The notes beneath the pieces were generated by a model. It had not been told where the DNA came from, did not search any database, and worked only from the letters and a program-made list of their open reading frames with translations. A stretch of DNA of 64,000 bases from positions 1 to 64,000 of the forward strand of contig NZ_QEKV01000006.1 of the NCBI RefSeq assembly GCF_003096635.1, written 5' to 3'. Positions 7,157 through 64,000 of the stretch are shown in pieces; the stretch's first letter is position 1, and every line of letters begins with the position of its first letter. The position numbers and the translations under genes were made by a program. Source of the DNA: Ezakiella coagulans. GTDB taxonomy: Bacteria > Bacillota > Clostridia > Tissierellales > Peptoniphilaceae.

Positions 7157-7182
7157 GAGCGATAGTTGTTATCGCTCTTTTT
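7157..7182 (+). terminator. Terminator of the small membrane protein gene
   Basis: GAGCGATA (7157-7164) and TATCGCTC (7170-7177) form an 8-base-pair stem with a 5-base loop, then five T residues. The 3' arm lies inside the last codons of the convergent GIY-YIG gene, so the element is shared coding and terminator sequence. Confidence 0.8.
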
Positions 7183-7456
7183 CAATATCAAAATCATTTA
7201 TAAGTTTCAACTTTTTTGCTTTTGTTAATTTTTTTATCGCAGCCTCGCGCTTCAAAGCTTCACTCATTGTATAGCCTGTTTCAAAATAAACTAGTTTGAC
7301 GGGCGTTCTTCCACGCGTATATTTGGCACCATTTTTCTCATTGTGGGTTTTGATACGTTTTTCTAAATCGTTTGTCATGCCGCAGTAGAGGGTGTCGTCG
7401 GCACATTTTAAAATATAGACTTTAAAATCTTTGGAATCGTTGTTATCTATTGTCAT
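7169..7456 (-). CDS. GIY-YIG domain protein (UPF0213/YhbQ-like)
   Basis: About 95 residues from the ATG at 7456. That start overlaps the recX stop by 14 bases. An in-frame extension to 7498 exists but would run further into recX and lacks the family N-terminus. The GIY-YIG core is visible as VYILKCADDTLYCGMTNDLEKRI, followed by GAKYTRGRTPVKLVYFE. The first Tyr-Ile-Leu and Tyr-Cys-Gly correspond to the two halves of the signature, with the catalytic Arg in the following helix. Members are small putative nucleases related to UvrC and to homing endonucleases. Cotranscription with recX suggests a DNA-repair role. Confidence 0.85.
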   Translation of the reverse strand: MTIDNNDSKDFKVYILKCADDTLYCGMTNDLEKRIKTHNEKNGAKYTRGRTPVKLVYFETGYTMSEALKREAAIKKLTKAKKLKLINDFDIEKER

Positions 7457-7895
7457 CGATATAGTCCTCAAGTGCATTTTTTGCACTACTATAATCATAA
7501 CCTCTTGAAATAAGATGGTTGATCACTTTTTGTTTGGTTTTAAAATCTTCGAGATTAAGGCCTTTGGCTTTCTTTTCGACTTGAGCGTAGAGATTTTTTT
7601 TTATGATTTCTTCATTGTCCATGAGTGCAAAATTTACAGCCTCGCCGGATATACCTTTTTCTTTAAGTTTAAAAATTATCTTTTGTGGACCCCACTTGTT
7701 TATAAGGAGATGGTCTGATACATATGCATTTATATAGTCTATATCATTGATATAGCCGACTTCTTTAGCATATTTTATAGCTTCATCTATTTCAGATTCG
7801 CTATAATCATTATCCTTTAAATATTTAATTGTTTCCGCCTCTGTTCTAGTGTTTTTAAGAAACATCAGGCAGCATTTGGTACATGTATATTTCAT
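7443..7895 (-). CDS. recX: Regulatory protein RecX
   Basis: A 150-residue RecA modulator built of helical triplet repeats. Recognisable blocks are RTEAETIKYLKDNDYSESEID, YINDIDYINAYV, KWGPQKIIFKLKEKGIS and a third repeat KQKVINHLISRGYDYSSAKNAL. RecX binds and restrains RecA filaments. Here recA itself lies about 40 kb away at 48314. The start codon is preceded by GAGGTG. A CxxC near the N-terminus (residues 5-9, CTKCC) is unusual and may not be functional. The gene is divergent from the FHA-RodA-PbpA operon with only 25 bases between start codons, so each promoter must lie in or near the other gene. Confidence 0.9.
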   Translation of the reverse strand: MKYTCTKCCLMFLKNTRTEAETIKYLKDNDYSESEIDEAIKYAKEVGYINDIDYINAYVSDHLLINKWGPQKIIFKLKEKGISGEAVNFALMDNEEIIKKNLYAQVEKKAKGLNLEDFKTKQKVINHLISRGYDYSSAKNALEDYIDDNR

Positions 7896-21385: not shown

Positions 21386-21420
21386 GTAGAATGGTATATA
21401 AGTACTCATTCTACTTTTTT
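21386..21420 (+). terminator. Terminator or attenuator between secF and recJ
   Basis: GTAGAATG (21386-21393) pairs perfectly with CATTCTAC (21407-21414) around a 13-base loop, followed by six T residues. The recJ ribosome site (GGAGG) begins four bases later, so readthrough or a promoter inside the region must supply recJ. Confidence 0.75.
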
Positions 21421-21432
21421 ATTGGAGGAATT

Positions 21433-23178
21433 ATGTTGGAGAAATGGTTTTTAAGAAATAAGAACAATGCTCAGTCGCCTGACAAGAATTTAAATCTGTT
21501 GGAACGCACAAAGCTACGCATTCTTTATAACAGAGATATAACTGAGATTGACGATATGAGAAAATATTTTTTAAATCCATACGAAGCAATGTATGACGCA
21601 AATCTTTTTAATGATTTCCATATTCTTTATGATCGACTTATTTCTCTGAAAGAAAATAATGAAACAGTAGCTATCGTCGGTGACTATGATGTCGACGGAA
21701 TTATGTCTACCACAATTCTTATTAAAACATTTAAACGCCTTGGAATTAACGTTACATATAAAATTCCTAACAGAATGTCTGATGGATATGGAATTAATAG
21801 ACGTATTGTTGACGAACTTAAACTTGAAGGTGTGAGTCTTATTATAACTGTAGATAATGGCATTCAAGCTTTTGACGTTTTAGAATACGCAAAGGAATTG
21901 GGACTCGATGTATTTATTACAGATCACCACGAGTTAAAGGTTGAAGACGGGGAGTTTAAAATTCCGGATTCAATCGGTGCAATAAATCCGCATCGACCTG
22001 ACAGCAATTATCCGTTCAAGCTTTTATGCGGTGCTGGTATTGCTTATAAAGTTGCAATTTTACTTTTAAAAAAATTCGGTGTATATGACGAAGCAATTGA
22101 CAGGGAGCTCATAACATTAGCCGGCATTGCAACAATTTGCGATGTCGTAGATCTTGTAGATGAAAATAGGATAATTTCATATCATGGCTTACTGAACTAT
22201 AGAACAACAACAAATTTGGGCTTGAGGGCAATTACAAAGGTCGCTAGCGTTGATATTTCAAAAGTGGATAGCTATCATATCGGATTTATTATAGGTCCAC
22301 GATTCAACTCAAGCGGTCGATTGAAAACAGCTGATTTGGGTATAGAATTATTAACCACTGAAGATGAGGACAGAGCCCTTGAAATTGCAACTGAGTTAAA
22401 TGATTTAAACGAAGAAAGAAAAACATATACCGAATCGGGATACAAGTCCGCTCTCGAAAAAATAGATTCAAATAATCTTCCTAGTGCGCTTGTCATTTAT
22501 CTAGAAAATATTCATGAAAGTGTTGCAGGAATAATTGCAGGACGTATAAAAGAAAAATATTACAGACCGACAATTATCCTTACTGATGGAGAAGAAAATC
22601 TAAAAGGTTCAGGAAGAAGTGTTGATGAGTTTGATATTTATAGTTCTATTTCAGAGTTCAGTGATTTATGTTTAAAATTCGGCGGACATAAAATGGCTTG
22701 CGGACTCTCAATTGAAAAAGATAAGATGGATGAATTTAGAGATAAACTCATAAAATCTGCAAATAAATATGAGACTGACTTTATTAAAAAGGTTTATATA
22801 GACGCAATTTTCCCGCTTGAAATGGTGGATTTAAGATTTCTTGATATGCTAAATTCATTCAGGCCGTTCGGTAAGGCGAATGAGGAGCCGAAATTTGCGG
22901 ACAATAATTTAAAATTTATAGGTTTTAATGTATTAGGAAAAAATAAAAATGTTATTAAACTATCTCTTGTTTCAAGTTCAAACAGAGTTGTTACGGCAAT
23001 TTTGTTTGAGACTGAGGACGCATTCCTTAAAAGATTCAAAGAGGAATTTAATTTAGATATTTATGATTCAATACAAAAGGGACTTTACATGGATATTGTT
23101 TATTACCCTCAACTTAATGAGTTCAGAGGTAATAAAGAAGCACAAATAATCATAACAAACTATAGGTACAAGAGGTGA
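21433..23178 (+). CDS. recJ: Single-stranded-DNA-specific exonuclease RecJ
   Basis: 581 residues from the ATG at 21433, chosen for TTGGAGG just upstream. It degrades single-stranded DNA 5' to 3' in recombination and mismatch repair. DHH-superfamily motifs are VGDYDVDGIMST, TVDNGIQAF, ITDHHE, NPHRPDSNYPFKLLCGAGI and the DHHA1 motif GGHKMACGLSIEKD. The C-terminal OB region is present. The N-terminus is less conserved than usual. It is 4 bases before rel. Confidence 0.93.
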   Translation: MLEKWFLRNKNNAQSPDKNLNLLERTKLRILYNRDITEIDDMRKYFLNPYEAMYDANLFNDFHILYDRLISLKENNETVAIVGDYDVDGIMSTTILIKTFKRLGINVTYKIPNRMSDGYGINRRIVDELKLEGVSLIITVDNGIQAFDVLEYAKELGLDVFITDHHELKVEDGEFKIPDSIGAINPHRPDSNYPFKLLCGAGIAYKVAILLLKKFGVYDEAIDRELITLAGIATICDVVDLVDENRIISYHGLLNYRTTTNLGLRAITKVASVDISKVDSYHIGFIIGPRFNSSGRLKTADLGIELLTTEDEDRALEIATELNDLNEERKTYTESGYKSALEKIDSNNLPSALVIYLENIHESVAGIIAGRIKEKYYRPTIILTDGEENLKGSGRSVDEFDIYSSISEFSDLCLKFGGHKMACGLSIEKDKMDEFRDKLIKSANKYETDFIKKVYIDAIFPLEMVDLRFLDMLNSFRPFGKANEEPKFADNNLKFIGFNVLGKNKNVIKLSLVSSSNRVVTAILFETEDAFLKRFKEEFNLDIYDSIQKGLYMDIVYYPQLNEFRGNKEAQIIITNYRYKR

Positions 23179-57494: not shown

Positions 57495-58422
57495 TTTTCT
57501 CCTCGCTTTCAATGAATTTTACTACTTCTGAAACATTGTTAAATTCATTTACATCTATCATTTTTACATTTGAATCGTTTCTAAACCATGTCAGTTGTCT
57601 TTTTGCATAGTTTCTTGAAAATTGCTTGAGTTTATCAATTGCAAAATCATAATCCCACTCACCTTCAAGATATTTTATGATTTCTTTATATCCAATCGCC
57701 TGCATGGATTGATTTTCTTTTGTAATGCCATTACTCATAAGGTTCTTAACTTCGTCAATCAATCCTTCCTCAAGCATTATATCTACTCTTTTATTTATTC
57801 TATCGTATAATAAATCTCTTTGCATTTCAAGGGCGTAATAGCTGAAAGTTATATTATTATTAATTTCTCTTATTGAATTGAAAGTATCTGAAAATTTATT
57901 TCCGGTACAAATAAAATACTCAATAGCCCTTATATTTCTTTTAGTATCATTCACGTTTATTCTATCAAAAGATTTTTTATCGATATAAAAAAGTGCATCT
58001 CTAATATGATCTATGCCTTTTTCTTCATACATTTCATAAATTTTTTCACGCACAAAATCGTCTTGACTGTTGTCGTCTAGATTCATATCATAAATCAATG
58101 AGTTTATATAAAAACCGGTTCCGCCACAGACAATCGGAATTTTATTTTTCGCATGTAATTCATTTATTATATTAAATGCATCTTCTCTATATTCTTTAAC
58201 GCTATAATTCTCGTAAGGCTCTTTAATGTCAATCAAATGATGCTTGATTCCTTGCATCTCTTCAGTGGTAACTTTCGCACTTCCAATATCACAACCTCTA
58301 TAAATTTGAATCGAATCTGCCGAAATAATTTCAGTATTAAGCGCTTTTGCAAGTTCAATAGATGTCTTTGTTTTTCCGACAGCTGTAGGTCCTGCAATAA
58401 TAATTATATGTGGCTTATTCAT
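57478..58422 (-). CDS. miaA: tRNA dimethylallyltransferase MiaA
   Basis: 314 residues from the ATG at 58422, preceded by GAGAGG inside mutL; the longer reading to 58437 is rejected. It prenylates A37 of tRNAs that read codons starting with U. P-loop: IIIAGPTAVGKTKTS. Other family blocks are EIISADSIQIYRGCDIGSAK, GGTGFYINSLIYD and AIGYKEIIKYLEGEWD. It provides the substrate for MiaB, encoded at the right edge. Overlaps mutL by 8 bases and the lyase gene by 17. Confidence 0.96.
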   Translation of the reverse strand: MNKPHIIIIAGPTAVGKTKTSIELAKALNTEIISADSIQIYRGCDIGSAKVTTEEMQGIKHHLIDIKEPYENYSVKEYREDAFNIINELHAKNKIPIVCGGTGFYINSLIYDMNLDDNSQDDFVREKIYEMYEEKGIDHIRDALFYIDKKSFDRINVNDTKRNIRAIEYFICTGNKFSDTFNSIREINNNITFSYYALEMQRDLLYDRINKRVDIMLEEGLIDEVKNLMSNGITKENQSMQAIGYKEIIKYLEGEWDYDFAIDKLKQFSRNYAKRQLTWFRNDSNVKMIDVNEFNNVSEVVKFIESEEKNEGFL

Positions 58423-60322
58423 GTAATAGCCTCTCAATAAATCTCACTTCATCGACGATTGTGAAAATATTTTTCCCTTGCGGAGATGTTAAAGAGTTCT
58501 TCGAATTTAAAACATCATATAAAATCTGTTTGATTTCATTAACATTCGCAAGTCTAGAACTGTTAGATGCAATTTTACTTAGACTAGAAATAAGCGACTT
58601 TTCTGTAATATTTTTATGATTATTTCCACCTTCTATCGTGTACACCAAATCATCAAAATTGCTTTTTATAAATTTATCACTTATGAGAGAAGGCACTCCA
58701 TGCAATACAACTGTATTCTCGCCCATAATTGAAATATCGAAACCCAATTCACTCAAAATCTCAATATTTTCTTCAATTTTTTCCAATGTTCCGCGATCAT
58801 AGTTATAAACAAATGGCTCTAAAACAGTTTGCGTTCCAACAGATTTATTTGCATAATCAGAATTTATTTTATCATACAAAGATCTCTCAATTGCATTTTT
58901 TATATTAACCACAATCATACAGTTTTTAGGTTTATTTTCAATCAAAAAGTAATTATTAAAAACTATTCCAAGTGGAATATTAAAATTCCACATTCCATCA
59001 ATTGGAAGCAAAGTTTCAATACTCGTCTCTGTATTTTTGATAACTTCTTCTTTTTTAACAACCATATTAGGGATTTCAAACTGAAAATCAGAATCTATAA
59101 TTTCATCCGAATCATTATCTGTTTCAAATTTATAATCATTTCCATCATCAGCAGCAGTCTCAATATTATAATAATCCATATTTAAGCTGCTCTTTATATT
59201 TTGAGGCGAATTTTTAACTGAATCTTCAGCATCATCCATTTGCTGATTCTCCAAAGATATTTCTTCATCATTAACTTCTTCGTCTTCCACAGTAAAAGAA
59301 ATGCTTTCTTCACTTGAAGCACTCACAACGTCTTTATTTGATTTTAAAACTTCATAAATTGAACTTTCAACTAAATATTTAACCTTGTCAAAATCATTAA
59401 ACTTAACAAATTTTTTCGAAGGATGAATATTGACATCAACTGAATTTTTTGGCACTGTTAGAAAAATAAAATAAACCGGTCTTCTGTTTTTGGGAATTAT
59501 TCCATAATAAATACCGTCTATTAATTTCTCGAGCTCTTTATTCTCTGTAATTCTGCCATTTACAAACAAAAGAGACTTGTTTTGTCCTACAGTTGAATTG
59601 TCACTGTTTCCAATTAGACCATAGACTTTATAATCGTCAAATGTTTTATCGATCTCAATTGTCTTTGTAGCAGTGTTTAAATCATAAACTTCCAAAATCG
59701 TCGTTTTAAGATTACCTGAACCACTTGTATTAATCACCGTTCTACCATTTGATATAAGTCTGAAGGATGTGCTGTAATAAGCGACTGCCATGGTTTCAAT
59801 AAGAGATATTATTTGATTTTCTTCAGTTCTGTCCGACGCAAGAAAGTCGCGTCTCACTGGCATATTTTTAAAAAGATTCGAAGACTCAATAGTAGTTCCA
59901 TAGTTCGTTACAGCCTCCCCTTTTGAAACAAATTCCCCGAAAGAATATTTTATATTAAGACCAACATTTTCTTCATGCGTCTTTGTGGAAAGCGAAACTT
60001 CCGAAACATTTTGAATAGAATTTAATGCCTCACCCCTGAATCCTCTTGTATCGAGCGAGAACAAATCTTCGAAGTTTGTAATTTTTGAAGTGAAATGCTT
60101 CTTAAAAACATTAGGCAAATCCTCATCAAAAATCCCAGAACCGTTGTCTGTAACTCTGATATAGTCCTTCCCACCTCTTTTTATTTCAACCACAATATCC
60201 GTTGCACCGGCGTCAATGGAGTTCTCAACCAATTCTTTAATGATTGAAACAGGTCTGTTTATAATTTCACCCGCCGCAATATTTTCAATTGTCTTATTGT
60301 CGAGTTTTATAATTTTTTTCAT
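58415..60322 (-). CDS. mutL: DNA mismatch repair protein MutL, endonuclease motif lost
   Basis: 635 residues. The N-terminal GHKL ATPase is intact: ENSIDAGATDIVVEIK, VTDNGSGI and TRGFRGEALNSI. A long acidic linker (about 335-435) follows. In the C-terminal domain the endonuclease motif DQHAxxER is replaced by NIKNAIER (residues 473-480), so the metal-binding Asp and His are gone. The CPHGRP-type motif near the C-terminus reads SPQGKN (613-618), lacking Cys and His. Endonuclease activity as known for B. subtilis MutL is therefore unlikely. One base separates it from mutS, so the two are cotranscribed. Confidence 0.95.
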   Translation of the reverse strand: MKKIIKLDNKTIENIAAGEIINRPVSIIKELVENSIDAGATDIVVEIKRGGKDYIRVTDNGSGIFDEDLPNVFKKHFTSKITNFEDLFSLDTRGFRGEALNSIQNVSEVSLSTKTHEENVGLNIKYSFGEFVSKGEAVTNYGTTIESSNLFKNMPVRRDFLASDRTEENQIISLIETMAVAYYSTSFRLISNGRTVINTSGSGNLKTTILEVYDLNTATKTIEIDKTFDDYKVYGLIGNSDNSTVGQNKSLLFVNGRITENKELEKLIDGIYYGIIPKNRRPVYFIFLTVPKNSVDVNIHPSKKFVKFNDFDKVKYLVESSIYEVLKSNKDVVSASSEESISFTVEDEEVNDEEISLENQQMDDAEDSVKNSPQNIKSSLNMDYYNIETAADDGNDYKFETDNDSDEIIDSDFQFEIPNMVVKKEEVIKNTETSIETLLPIDGMWNFNIPLGIVFNNYFLIENKPKNCMIVVNIKNAIERSLYDKINSDYANKSVGTQTVLEPFVYNYDRGTLEKIEENIEILSELGFDISIMGENTVVLHGVPSLISDKFIKSNFDDLVYTIEGGNNHKNITEKSLISSLSKIASNSSRLANVNEIKQILYDVLNSKNSLTSPQGKNIFTIVDEVRFIERLLHE

Positions 60323-60323
60323 A

Positions 60324-62900
60324 TTATTCCTTCGCTTTTTTAATAATATTGTTTATTTCCATCATAGCATCAATCGGTGTCATCGAATTTATATCAAGAC
60401 TCAAAATATAATCCCTCAATTGATTGTCTACTCCAACCGGTTCTTCCTCGTAACTGTTGTTTAAGAAATCAACTTGTCTTCCATTTCTATAATTAATTTC
60501 CGCATCTTTCTGGAATTTTCGTGCTTTTGAAATAACTTCATCCGGCAGTCCTGCAAGTTTTGCAACATGGATACCATAACTCTTTGATGTAATGCCCGGT
60601 TTAACTTTCCTCAAAAACATTATATCGTTTCCTTCTTCTTTAATTGTAAGAGTAAGATTGAAAATTATGTTTGAAAGCGATTCCAAATTGGACAATTCTT
60701 GATAGTGAGTTGAAAACAAAGTAAAAGCTTTAACTCTATCAGTTATATATAAAACAACCGCTTTTGCAATCGCCATTCCGTCAAATGTGCTTGTGCCTCT
60801 GCCGACTTCATCTAAAATTATAAGTGAATTTTTTGTGGCATTCTTCAAAATATAGCTTACTTCGCTCATTTCAACCATAAATGTAGACTTTCCGGAATAT
60901 AGCGAATCACTTGCTCCTATTCTTGTAAATATTTTATCCACAACACTCAAATCGCCTGAATCCGCAGGAATAAACGATCCGATTTGTGCCATTATTTGTA
61001 TTATGGCAACCATTCTCATATATGTGGACTTACCACTCATGTTAGGACCTGTTATTATCGCAACTCTGTCGAGCGAATTTAAGTTCACGTCGTTTGGTAT
61101 AAACTCTTCCAACCCATTCATCATTTCTATAACCGGGTGTCTGGCGTTTACAAGCTCTATTCTAGACTCTGTGTTAAACTTCGGTCTGATATACCTATTC
61201 TCTCTTGCAACCGTACTAAGAGCAATATAGACGTCAATTTCAGCGAGATCAAATGCAAGCTTCTTTAAAGATGGAATGAACTCCATAAATGAATCCAACA
61301 TCTCAAAATATATATTTTTTTCTAGTGCAAGTGCAATACTTGAAGAATTTAATACATTGTACTCAATCTCTCTAAGCTTTTTCGTCTTATATCTTTCTGC
61401 ATTCTTTAAAGTTTGAGTTCTTTCAAACTCATCAGAAACCTTGTCCGCTTGTCCCTTTGAGACCTCAATATAATAGCCGGCAAGTTTATTGTATTTAATC
61501 CTTAAAGTTTTTATATCCGTCTTTGCTCTTAGCTCATTTTCATAATTAATAAGTTTATCGGTAATTTCGGTCTTGTCGTCTCTTATTTCGTCGAGCTCAC
61601 TGTTGTATCCGTGTCTAATAACATAACCGTCATTTATTGACATCGACGGTTCATCAGCTATTGCATCTTGAAGTTTCTTATAAATCTCTTTGTGCTCATC
61701 CAGGTCTGAAAGTCTTTTCATGGCATCTGAACCAAGTGCAGAGATTTCATCTTTAATGAGCGGAATGATTCGAAGTGTTTCTTTTAGATTCAATAAATCC
61801 TGCGGAGAAGCGGATTTTTCAGAAATCTTTGACGCAATTCTTTCTATGTCAAAAGTCTTAGATAATAAATTTTTAATAGTTTCCGCTTCAATAGGATTGT
61901 TGTAAAAAACTTCCACAACATTTTGTCTATAAGATATCTCGCGAATATCTTTTAACGGTCTTTCGATAATAGCCTTGAGTCTTCTTGCACCTTTCGATGT
62001 TATAGTCTTGTCCAAAATCGAAAGTAGACTTCCCTTCTTAGTGTTATCGGTAATGTTTTTTGAAAGCTCAAGATTTCTTATAGCACTCTCGTCGAGCTCA
62101 AGATATTTTGAAATATCATATGAAATAATACTATCTATATGTTTTAAATTTATATTTTTATTTTCAAATAAATATTTAAACAAATTTAAAATAGAAAATC
62201 TTAAATTTACAATATTTTTTTGTGCATTAATATCTATTCCAGTAAATTCTGAAATCTTTTCTTTTATTTCTTCAAAATTCGGCACTTCATTTTTAAGAAC
62301 TGTATAATAACCGAGCTCTTTAAATTTGGAATATAGTTTAACGTCATTTACAATTATTTCTTTCGGATGTATCCTCATAACCTCATCATAAATGCTCTTA
62401 AAAGAATCAAACACAAAATCATTTGAAACATAAAGTTCCCCTGTCGAAATATCAGCATATGCAATTGAAATATTTTCGTCTACATAAATTGACGCCAAAA
62501 AATTGTTGTCATCATCAGATAAATACTCCGTATCTATTATGGTGCCAGGAGTATAAATTTTTATTATTCCTCTTTCGACAAGTGCCTTCCCTTGCCCCGG
62601 CTCTTCCAATTGCTCGCAAATTGCGACCTTGTAATTATTTTCTATTAATTTTTTTACATAAGTAAGCGATGCGTGATGCGGCACTCCACACATCGGTGCT
62701 CTCTCCTCAAGACCGCAGTCCCTTCCGGTGAGAGCAAGCCCCAAAACTCTCGAGGCTTCTATTGCATCGTCAAAAAACATCTCATAAAAATCACCGATTC
62801 TATACATCAAAATAGAATCCAATGCCTGATCTTTTATGGATGCGTATTGCCTCATCATTGGCGTTAACTTTTCTTTGTCTATGCTTTCAAATAAACTCAT
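60324..62900 (-). CDS. mutS: DNA mismatch repair protein MutS
   Basis: 858 residues. The mismatch-reading motif is YRIGDFYEMFFDDA (Phe-x-Glu). Walker A is GPNMSGKSTYMR, Walker B LIILDEVGRGTSTFDG, with the following STHYQELSNL. The full lever and clamp region lies between, and CGVPHHASLTYVKKLIENNYKVAICEQ covers two N-terminal blocks. Length and domain order match MutS1. The C-terminal helix-turn-helix dimer region (about 800-858) is present. The ATG shares one base with the miaB stop. Confidence 0.96.
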   Translation of the reverse strand: MSLFESIDKEKLTPMMRQYASIKDQALDSILMYRIGDFYEMFFDDAIEASRVLGLALTGRDCGLEERAPMCGVPHHASLTYVKKLIENNYKVAICEQLEEPGQGKALVERGIIKIYTPGTIIDTEYLSDDDNNFLASIYVDENISIAYADISTGELYVSNDFVFDSFKSIYDEVMRIHPKEIIVNDVKLYSKFKELGYYTVLKNEVPNFEEIKEKISEFTGIDINAQKNIVNLRFSILNLFKYLFENKNINLKHIDSIISYDISKYLELDESAIRNLELSKNITDNTKKGSLLSILDKTITSKGARRLKAIIERPLKDIREISYRQNVVEVFYNNPIEAETIKNLLSKTFDIERIASKISEKSASPQDLLNLKETLRIIPLIKDEISALGSDAMKRLSDLDEHKEIYKKLQDAIADEPSMSINDGYVIRHGYNSELDEIRDDKTEITDKLINYENELRAKTDIKTLRIKYNKLAGYYIEVSKGQADKVSDEFERTQTLKNAERYKTKKLREIEYNVLNSSSIALALEKNIYFEMLDSFMEFIPSLKKLAFDLAEIDVYIALSTVARENRYIRPKFNTESRIELVNARHPVIEMMNGLEEFIPNDVNLNSLDRVAIITGPNMSGKSTYMRMVAIIQIMAQIGSFIPADSGDLSVVDKIFTRIGASDSLYSGKSTFMVEMSEVSYILKNATKNSLIILDEVGRGTSTFDGMAIAKAVVLYITDRVKAFTLFSTHYQELSNLESLSNIIFNLTLTIKEEGNDIMFLRKVKPGITSKSYGIHVAKLAGLPDEVISKARKFQKDAEINYRNGRQVDFLNNSYEEEPVGVDNQLRDYILSLDINSMTPIDAMMEINNIIKKAKE

Positions 62901-64000
62901 TAAACCATCCGTCCAAAACTTGTAAAAGTATTAATCTTCTCTATTTCAACCTCAACAATTTTTCCGATATCTTCCCTATCTCCTTCAAAAACGACAAGAC
63001 GTCCATAAGGATTTCTTCCCTCGAGTGTGTGCTCAGTTTCATTATATGATTCAACCAAAACCTCATATCGATTTCCAATTGTACCTTCGTGATTTTCCAG
63101 CTGAATGCTATTCATTAAATCGGTCAATCGATTGAATCTATCTTTCAGAATACTATCATCTATTTCTTTAAGCTTCGCCGCTGGTGTATTTGGTCTTGGG
63201 CTGAAAATAAATGTAAATGCACTGTCATACCTAACTTTTTTGACGATATCCAAAGTCTTTTCGAAATCTTCTTCCGTCTCTGTCGGGTATCCGACAATAA
63301 TATCTGTTGAAAGCGAAATGTCTGGTCGAATCTGTTTTACCTTGTCGACAATATACATATACTTTTCAATATCATAATGCCTGTTCATATCCTTTAAAAC
63401 CTTATCCGAGCCTGATTGAATCGGAAGATGAAGCTGAGGCATGAGCTTGTCAAGTTTTCCATAAAGCTCCAAAAAATCATCAGTTATATCTCTCGGATGC
63501 GGAGTCATAAACCTTATTCTCTTTAAATCTCTAATCTTATTAAGTTCGACAAGAAGCTCGGCAAAACTTCTTCTGGGCGTCAAAGTCTTACCAAAAGAAT
63601 TTACATTTTGCCCAAGAAGCATTATTTCCTTAACTCCGTCTTGAACCAAAAACTTGACCTCATCAACTATATCTTCTACAGTCCTAGAAGTCTCTCTTCC
63701 TCTTGTATAAGGCACGATGCAATATGTGCAGAAATTATTGCATCCATAAGTAATATTTACAAATGACTTGTATTTAAAAGGCCTTATTGCATCAAAAGTT
63801 TTATCTGTATATTCATTTTTTTCAAGAACTTCGACAATTCGTTCTCCGGTTGCAAGATGCCTCTCAAGTAAACTTCTAAAATTATCTATATTATTTGTTC
63901 CAAATATAATCTTTACGTTTTTAAATTTAGATATAATCTCATTTCTAATTTCTTCAGACTGCATCATACAGCCACAAATGCAAATAATTTTTTCATCATA
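62900..64000 (-). CDS. miaB: tRNA-2-methylthio-N6-dimethylallyladenosine synthase MiaB (5' end off window)
   Basis: About 367 residues of the C-terminal part are visible; the frame stays open to the right edge, so the gene is partial. The first visible residues contain CICGCMMQ, the third conserved Cys of the N-terminal domain, showing that the start is outside the window. The radical SAM motif is CNNFCTYCIVPYTRGRETSR, and a TRAM domain forms the C-terminus. It methylthiolates i6A37 made by MiaA, encoded in the same unit. RimO, its paralogue, is at 45955. Confidence 0.94.
   Translation of the reverse strand, partial: YDEKIICICGCMMQSEEIRNEIISKFKNVKIIFGTNNIDNFRSLLERHLATGERIVEVLEKNEYTDKTFDAIRPFKYKSFVNITYGCNNFCTYCIVPYTRGRETSRTVEDIVDEVKFLVQDGVKEIMLLGQNVNSFGKTLTPRRSFAELLVELNKIRDLKRIRFMTPHPRDITDDFLELYGKLDKLMPQLHLPIQSGSDKVLKDMNRHYDIEKYMYIVDKVKQIRPDISLSTDIIVGYPTETEEDFEKTLDIVKKVRYDSAFTFIFSPRPNTPAAKLKEIDDSILKDRFNRLTDLMNSIQLENHEGTIGNRYEVLVESYNETEHTLEGRNPYGRLVVFEGDREDIGKIVEVEIEKINTFTSFGRMV

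Follow-up and report, generated by a model that had tools for sequence, protein, structure and literature searches.

How does mismatch repair begin in a bacterium whose only MutL has lost the residues needed to cut DNA? The reviews covered by the literature search describe nicking by MutH or MutL only, and one from 2025 does so for all cases (PMC12733681). The 64,000-nucleotide stretch of Ezakiella coagulans DNA analysed here (the window) appears to fit neither case. In it, mutS lies directly upstream of mutL in the same transcription direction. An earlier note on this DNA had claimed that the MutL endonuclease residues are gone and had named three ways out: another nuclease, pre-existing nicks or a reduced pathway.

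The endonuclease site of the window MutL

The mutL product (Table 1) belongs to family TIGR00585. Its GHKL ATPase motifs and MutL transducer domain are present, as is the modelled fold of the C-terminal dimerisation domain, with dimer formation itself a prediction. The MutL_C profile (PF08676) matches the 635-residue protein with E=1.6e-18.

What is missing is the metal site. The DQHA(x)2E(x)4E metal-binding motif of the MutL endonuclease (B. subtilis / PMS2 type) is absent; the window MutL has NIKNAIERSLYD instead. In an alignment of 115 complete MutLs of the family, the sequences that retain the site read D-Q-H-A-x-H-E-R in the first motif, with D, Q, the first H and E at 100% and the motif A at 98%. 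Both glutamates of DQHA(x)2E(x)4E stand at 100% in these sequences, and so does each column of CPHGRP. In the window MutL the zinc-ligand His of DQHA has become Lys. The replacements described in the earlier note, NIKNAIER for DQHAxxER and SPQGKN for CPHGRP, were borne out, and the codons of residues 473-480 are exactly 58883-58906. The note had also called the N-terminal ATPase motifs intact, and the alignment agrees: E30, N34, D59, G61, G63, GFRGEAL at 94-100 and K303 are invariant or nearly so, and the motifs are invariant among the sampled proteins without the site. On the loss itself the note fell short in one respect and overstated in another. All three motifs are gone, including the ACR motif that it missed, whose Cys is now Ser582, although Glu479, the first E of DQHA(x)2ER, is still present. 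The alignment confirms that the endonuclease site has been lost in all three of its parts (DQHA, ACR and CPHGRP).

Which of these residues matter for cutting? The zinc ligands are the His of DQHA, the Cys of ACR and the Cys and His of CPHGRP, and the catalytic residue is the CPHGRP Arg; an Arg-to-Lys change there left T. thermophilus MutL unable to complement a mutator (PMC10366529). Structural work indicates that the DQHA Asp is not a metal ligand and is probably a helix cap, with zinc coordinated elsewhere in the three motifs (PMC10366529, PMC2965676). The earlier note's view that losing either Asp or His abolishes nicking therefore needs nuance in its Asp half. Survival of this Asp in about 89% of site-less sequences by weight fits the reported non-ligand, possibly helix-capping role (PMC10366529); the window MutL, unlike most of them, lacks it as well. 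The motif Glu is kept in 42% of site-less sequences, and the column of the catalytic Arg holds Lys in 77%. In one MutL, from genus g16 (genome G067, locus L064), the first motif retains its D and E but not its His, and CPHGRP reads SPHGKD, with the His kept and the Cys gone. This protein may represent an intermediate state of the loss.

Table 1. Position and basis of the features discussed, in window coordinates
Feature	Position	Strand	Basis or remark
mutL	58415..60322	-	ATG start, 635 aa ORF; TIGR00585 E=1.8e-131; PF01119, PF08676, HATPase_c_3
MutL N-terminal ATPase (GHKL) and transducer domain, residues 1-330	59333..60322	-	motifs intact; MutL N-terminal structures, 9n2k E=1.2e-60
MutL C-terminal dimerisation domain, residues 448-635	58418..58981	-	fold kept in model; AlphaFold2 pLDDT 91.7, pTM 0.84
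Former metal-binding motif DQHA(x)2ER, now NIKNAIER, residues 473-480	58883..58906	-	alignment with 66 site-retaining MutLs, D/Q/H/E 100%
Beta-clamp-binding motif QxLLxP, here QTVLEP, residues 498-503	58814..58831	-	retained; family alignment
Former zinc-ligand Cys of ACR motif, now Ser582	58577..58579	-	column 100% Cys in site-retaining MutLs
Former CPHGRP (zinc ligands C, H; catalytic R), now SPQGKN, residues 613-618	58469..58486	-	columns 100% C-P-H-G-R-P in site-retaining MutLs
mutS, 858 aa, intact	60324..62900	-	TIGR01070 5.3e-258; GDFYE, GPNMSGKST, DExGRGT present
Possible MutS-tail beta-clamp motif QVDFL	60462..60476	-	suggested by sequence inspection
miaA	57478..58437	-	downstream neighbour of mutL in 41/41 regions compared; name from sequence and gene order
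miaB-like gene (radical SAM)	62900..63967	-	upstream of mutS, reaching near window edge; cluster 4 in 30/41 regions; name from sequence
Small GIY-YIG protein	7169..7498	-	overlaps RecX-like gene 7443-7895 (-)
recJ	21391..23178		ordinary RecJ

Distribution and history of the loss

Comparison with relatives, which the earlier note had proposed, shows that the loss is not peculiar to one genome: it is fixed in eight genera and was probably repeated. We collected mutL regions from the Anaerococcus/Peptoniphilus family, sampling 130 genomes from 39 genera (coded g1 for the window genus, g3 for Anaerococcus, g35 and g36 for Peptoniphilus). All 49 complete MutLs of g1, g3, g7, g8, g14, g16, g17 and g34 lack both DQHA and CPHGRP. 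Both motifs are retained in all 66 complete MutLs of the remaining family genera, with a single conservative change, DQHS (A to S), in G074. Chance and sequencing or assembly error were rejected as explanations, since the loss is common to 49 complete MutLs that include seven further genera. Annotation by name conceals all this: the NCBIfam name 'DNA mismatch repair endonuclease MutL' is also given to the site-less proteins.

Across the order, 185 of 249 genomes gave a match to a strict DNA pattern for DQHAxxER. Nearly all genomes of the other families have it; the misses are G138, G146, G193 and G229, and G146 is the only one of these more than 90% complete. At 97% completeness G146 is without the pattern, and it could possibly be a further independent loss. 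In the phylum sample the DQHA pattern occurs in 310 of 398 genomes, a figure whose misses include genomes without MutL or with variant motifs and which is hence not a count of losses.

How many times was the site lost? The tree of the MutL N-terminal domain requires three changes of state. The MutS tree, rooted on other Clostridia, requires four, three of them forced by well-supported branches. A single ancestral loss is rejected on the MutS data when all site-less genera are held together (AU p = 0.0002); a topology that unites the Anaerococcus group with g7/g8/g16 is also rejected, though less strongly (p = 0.02). These changes of state and the AU rejection give good support to two or more losses, and three to four are likely, on counts that come from single-gene trees with long branches.

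What is kept, and where a nick could come from

Do the site-less proteins still do anything? The C-terminal domain keeps its fold in an AlphaFold2 model, which shows overall shape and from which metal binding cannot be read. The structures closest to it are MutL C-terminal domains, among them 3ncv (N. gonorrhoeae, Z 18.0), 1x9z (E. coli, Z 16.6) and 3kdk (B. subtilis, Z 15.0). The clamp motif QxLLxP is also retained, its columns showing Q in 94%, L in 91% and P in 91% of site-less sequences (Q in 100% of the others), and the modelled subdomain that carries it matches the MutL part of the clamp-MutL structures 6e8e/6e8d with an rmsd of 1.7-1.8. Median pairwise dN/dS (NG86, within genera, the pairs not being independent) is 0.089 for the N-terminal and 0.138 for the C-terminal part of site-less MutLs, and 0.052 and 0.054 for the same parts where the site is kept. 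Values so far below 1 clearly point to selection that is relaxed yet strongly purifying. The higher C-terminal value would also fit a partial loss of function.

MutS is kept as well. It is present in 128 of 130 family genomes, some weak matches perhaps being MutS2, and its mismatch-binding and ATPase motifs are intact in the regions of all 21 site-less genomes checked. The sister species has QLKLF at the position of the possible clamp motif in the MutS tail. Among single representative genomes, mutS is seemingly interrupted in five that keep the MutL site (G051, G105, G107, G117 and G119) and in two that do not (G038 and G102); these are perhaps natural mutators or assembly errors. Because such genes occur in both groups, the site-less genomes show no special decay.

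If MutL does not cut, does another enzyme? A dedicated nickase, of a family that is unknown or was outside the search, might make the incision with MutL as matchmaker for an analogue of MutH. In the Gammaproteobacteria MutL can lose its site where a separate nuclease exists, and repeated loss in this family could reflect a backup nickase that its ancestor already possessed. The searches speak against this: of the three proteins that the earlier note proposed looking for, MutH, a Dam methylase and a second MutL, none was found in the genome. For MutH, a PF02976 profile search that was positive in the E. coli control gave no match in the window genome or its genus. The matches in 7 of 130 family genomes are sporadic and fall on site-less and site-retaining genomes alike, and they look like Sau3AI-type restriction enzymes; six of the seven genomes have two matches in one long frame, mostly of 430-520 aa (L245, L246 and L247 among them), and G104 has two in separate frames. 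MutH was rejected as the replacement cutter on these grounds. Dam-type methylases are likewise sporadic in the family, with no PF02086 (MethyltransfD12) match in the window genome (control positive in E. coli). Nor was a second MutL found: the profile search gave one MutL_C match in a genome 99.85% complete, and a second MutL supplying the nuclease was rejected. Across 41 regions compared, the mutS-mutL-miaA neighbourhood is alike in both groups and no extra gene was seen in the mutSL operon. The link to the GIY-YIG protein at 7169, raised in the earlier note, went unsupported, and the protein was rejected as a substitute nuclease: 126 of 130 family genomes encode it, whether or not their genus keeps the MutL site. 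A gain of RNase HII by the site-less genera was also rejected, this enzyme being present in the window genome and in 128 of 130 family genomes. We consider a dedicated nickase unlikely, though it is the strongest of the alternatives.

Postreplicative repair might instead be weak or gone, with MutS and MutL kept for some other purpose, for example to block recombination between divergent sequences. The relaxed selection on the C-terminal domain and the two site-less genomes with interrupted mutS would suit this idea. Such interruptions are at least as common where the site is kept, and the eight genera conserve MutS together with the ATPase and clamp motif of MutL, which makes it improbable. 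The reduced pathway of the earlier note accordingly fits less well than its other two options, which both still stand, since most site-less genomes have an intact MutS and MutL and purifying selection on MutL is clear. Less probable again is a MutL that still cuts through a metal site rebuilt from other residues. The surviving Asp and, in part, Glu, and the residues kept in the g16 protein, could be read as its remnants, but no newly conserved Cys, His, Asp or Glu column appears across the C-terminal domains of the site-less proteins, whose strongly conserved columns are positions of the fold and the clamp motif, and the window MutL has lost the Asp too.

We favour a reading in which MutL is an ATP-driven, clamp-bound, non-cutting matchmaker and repair enters at replication discontinuities, without MutH or Dam; we give it a probability of about 0.55. 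MutS would recognise the mismatch and then load MutL. Tethered to the beta clamp, MutL would make no nick and would hold the complex on the new strand. It would then admit an exonuclease and a PcrA/UvrD-type helicase, their points of entry being discontinuities that remain after replication: Okazaki ends, 3' ends at the fork and RNase HII cuts at ribonucleotides. Entry of this kind has already been discussed for bacteria without MutH (PMC8744996). We infer it here mainly because targeted family searches found no known nickase. RNase HII could at least supply nicks, but as it is universal in the family its presence is weak support for the model.

Wider occurrence and comparison with known systems

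The same absence is found outside the family. A similarity-based sample of 80 named MutLs includes 11 Bacteroidota proteins (L151, L157, L162, L175, L178, L183, L184, L194, L196, L200 and L201), and all of these lack DQHA and, where the sequence reaches, CPHGRP (L196 is short and covers DQHA only). MutLs of Pelagicoccus (Opitutia; L128) and of two Clostridia MAGs (L173 and L179) are also without the endonuclease motifs. No MutH was found in the 14 motif-less genomes of mixed phyla (Bacteroidota, Opitutia and Clostridia) that were tested. When 148 genomes were drawn evenly from the Bacteroidota (the phylum of G257), the strict pattern turned up in 19, of which only about 9 read DQHAAHER; by this quick survey, most Bacteroidota apparently lack the motif. 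The window case is thus a recent and comparable instance, with site-retaining relatives in the same family, of a larger phenomenon. Our search, chiefly of openly accessible literature, returned no report of MutL site loss in Anaerococcus or Bacteroidota, and a prior description is possible.

At least eight genera, and by the quick survey most Bacteroidota, have MutS and MutL, and in them neither known source of a nick was found. Should repair be active there, either pre-existing discontinuities suffice for strand choice or the textbook account misses a nickase. We tentatively suggest, at a little under even odds, a third bacterial mode of repair, with neither MutL cutting nor MutH, that arose several times in this family and apparently serves most Bacteroidota, and that uses either the strand breaks of replication or a still unknown nickase.

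How does this MutL compare with the systems already known? With the B. subtilis-type endonuclease it shares homology, domain order, fold, the clamp motif and the lack of MutH; it differs in that all three metal-binding motifs are replaced. Eukaryotic MLH1 and PMS1/MLH2 are likewise MutL-fold proteins that do not cut, but they partner or work beside a nuclease-bearing MutL, whereas one MutL gene was found here. The Bacteroidota proteins resemble it in a C-terminal domain without the motifs, and belong to a separate phylum with other replacement residues. A further parallel is with E. coli, whose MutL combines the same ATPase motifs with a dimeric C-terminal domain that lacks DQHA, ACR and CPHGRP. 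Of six C-terminal motifs described for MutL, the E. coli protein has QxLLxP alone (PMC2965676), and that is also the motif that the site-less proteins retain, so they have converged on the E. coli state. They differ from E. coli in two ways: methyl-directed repair there joins MutS and MutL to MutH, for which, as for a Dam-type methylase, the window genome has no match; and other genera of this family keep the endonuclease, the loss being independent of that in the Gammaproteobacteria.
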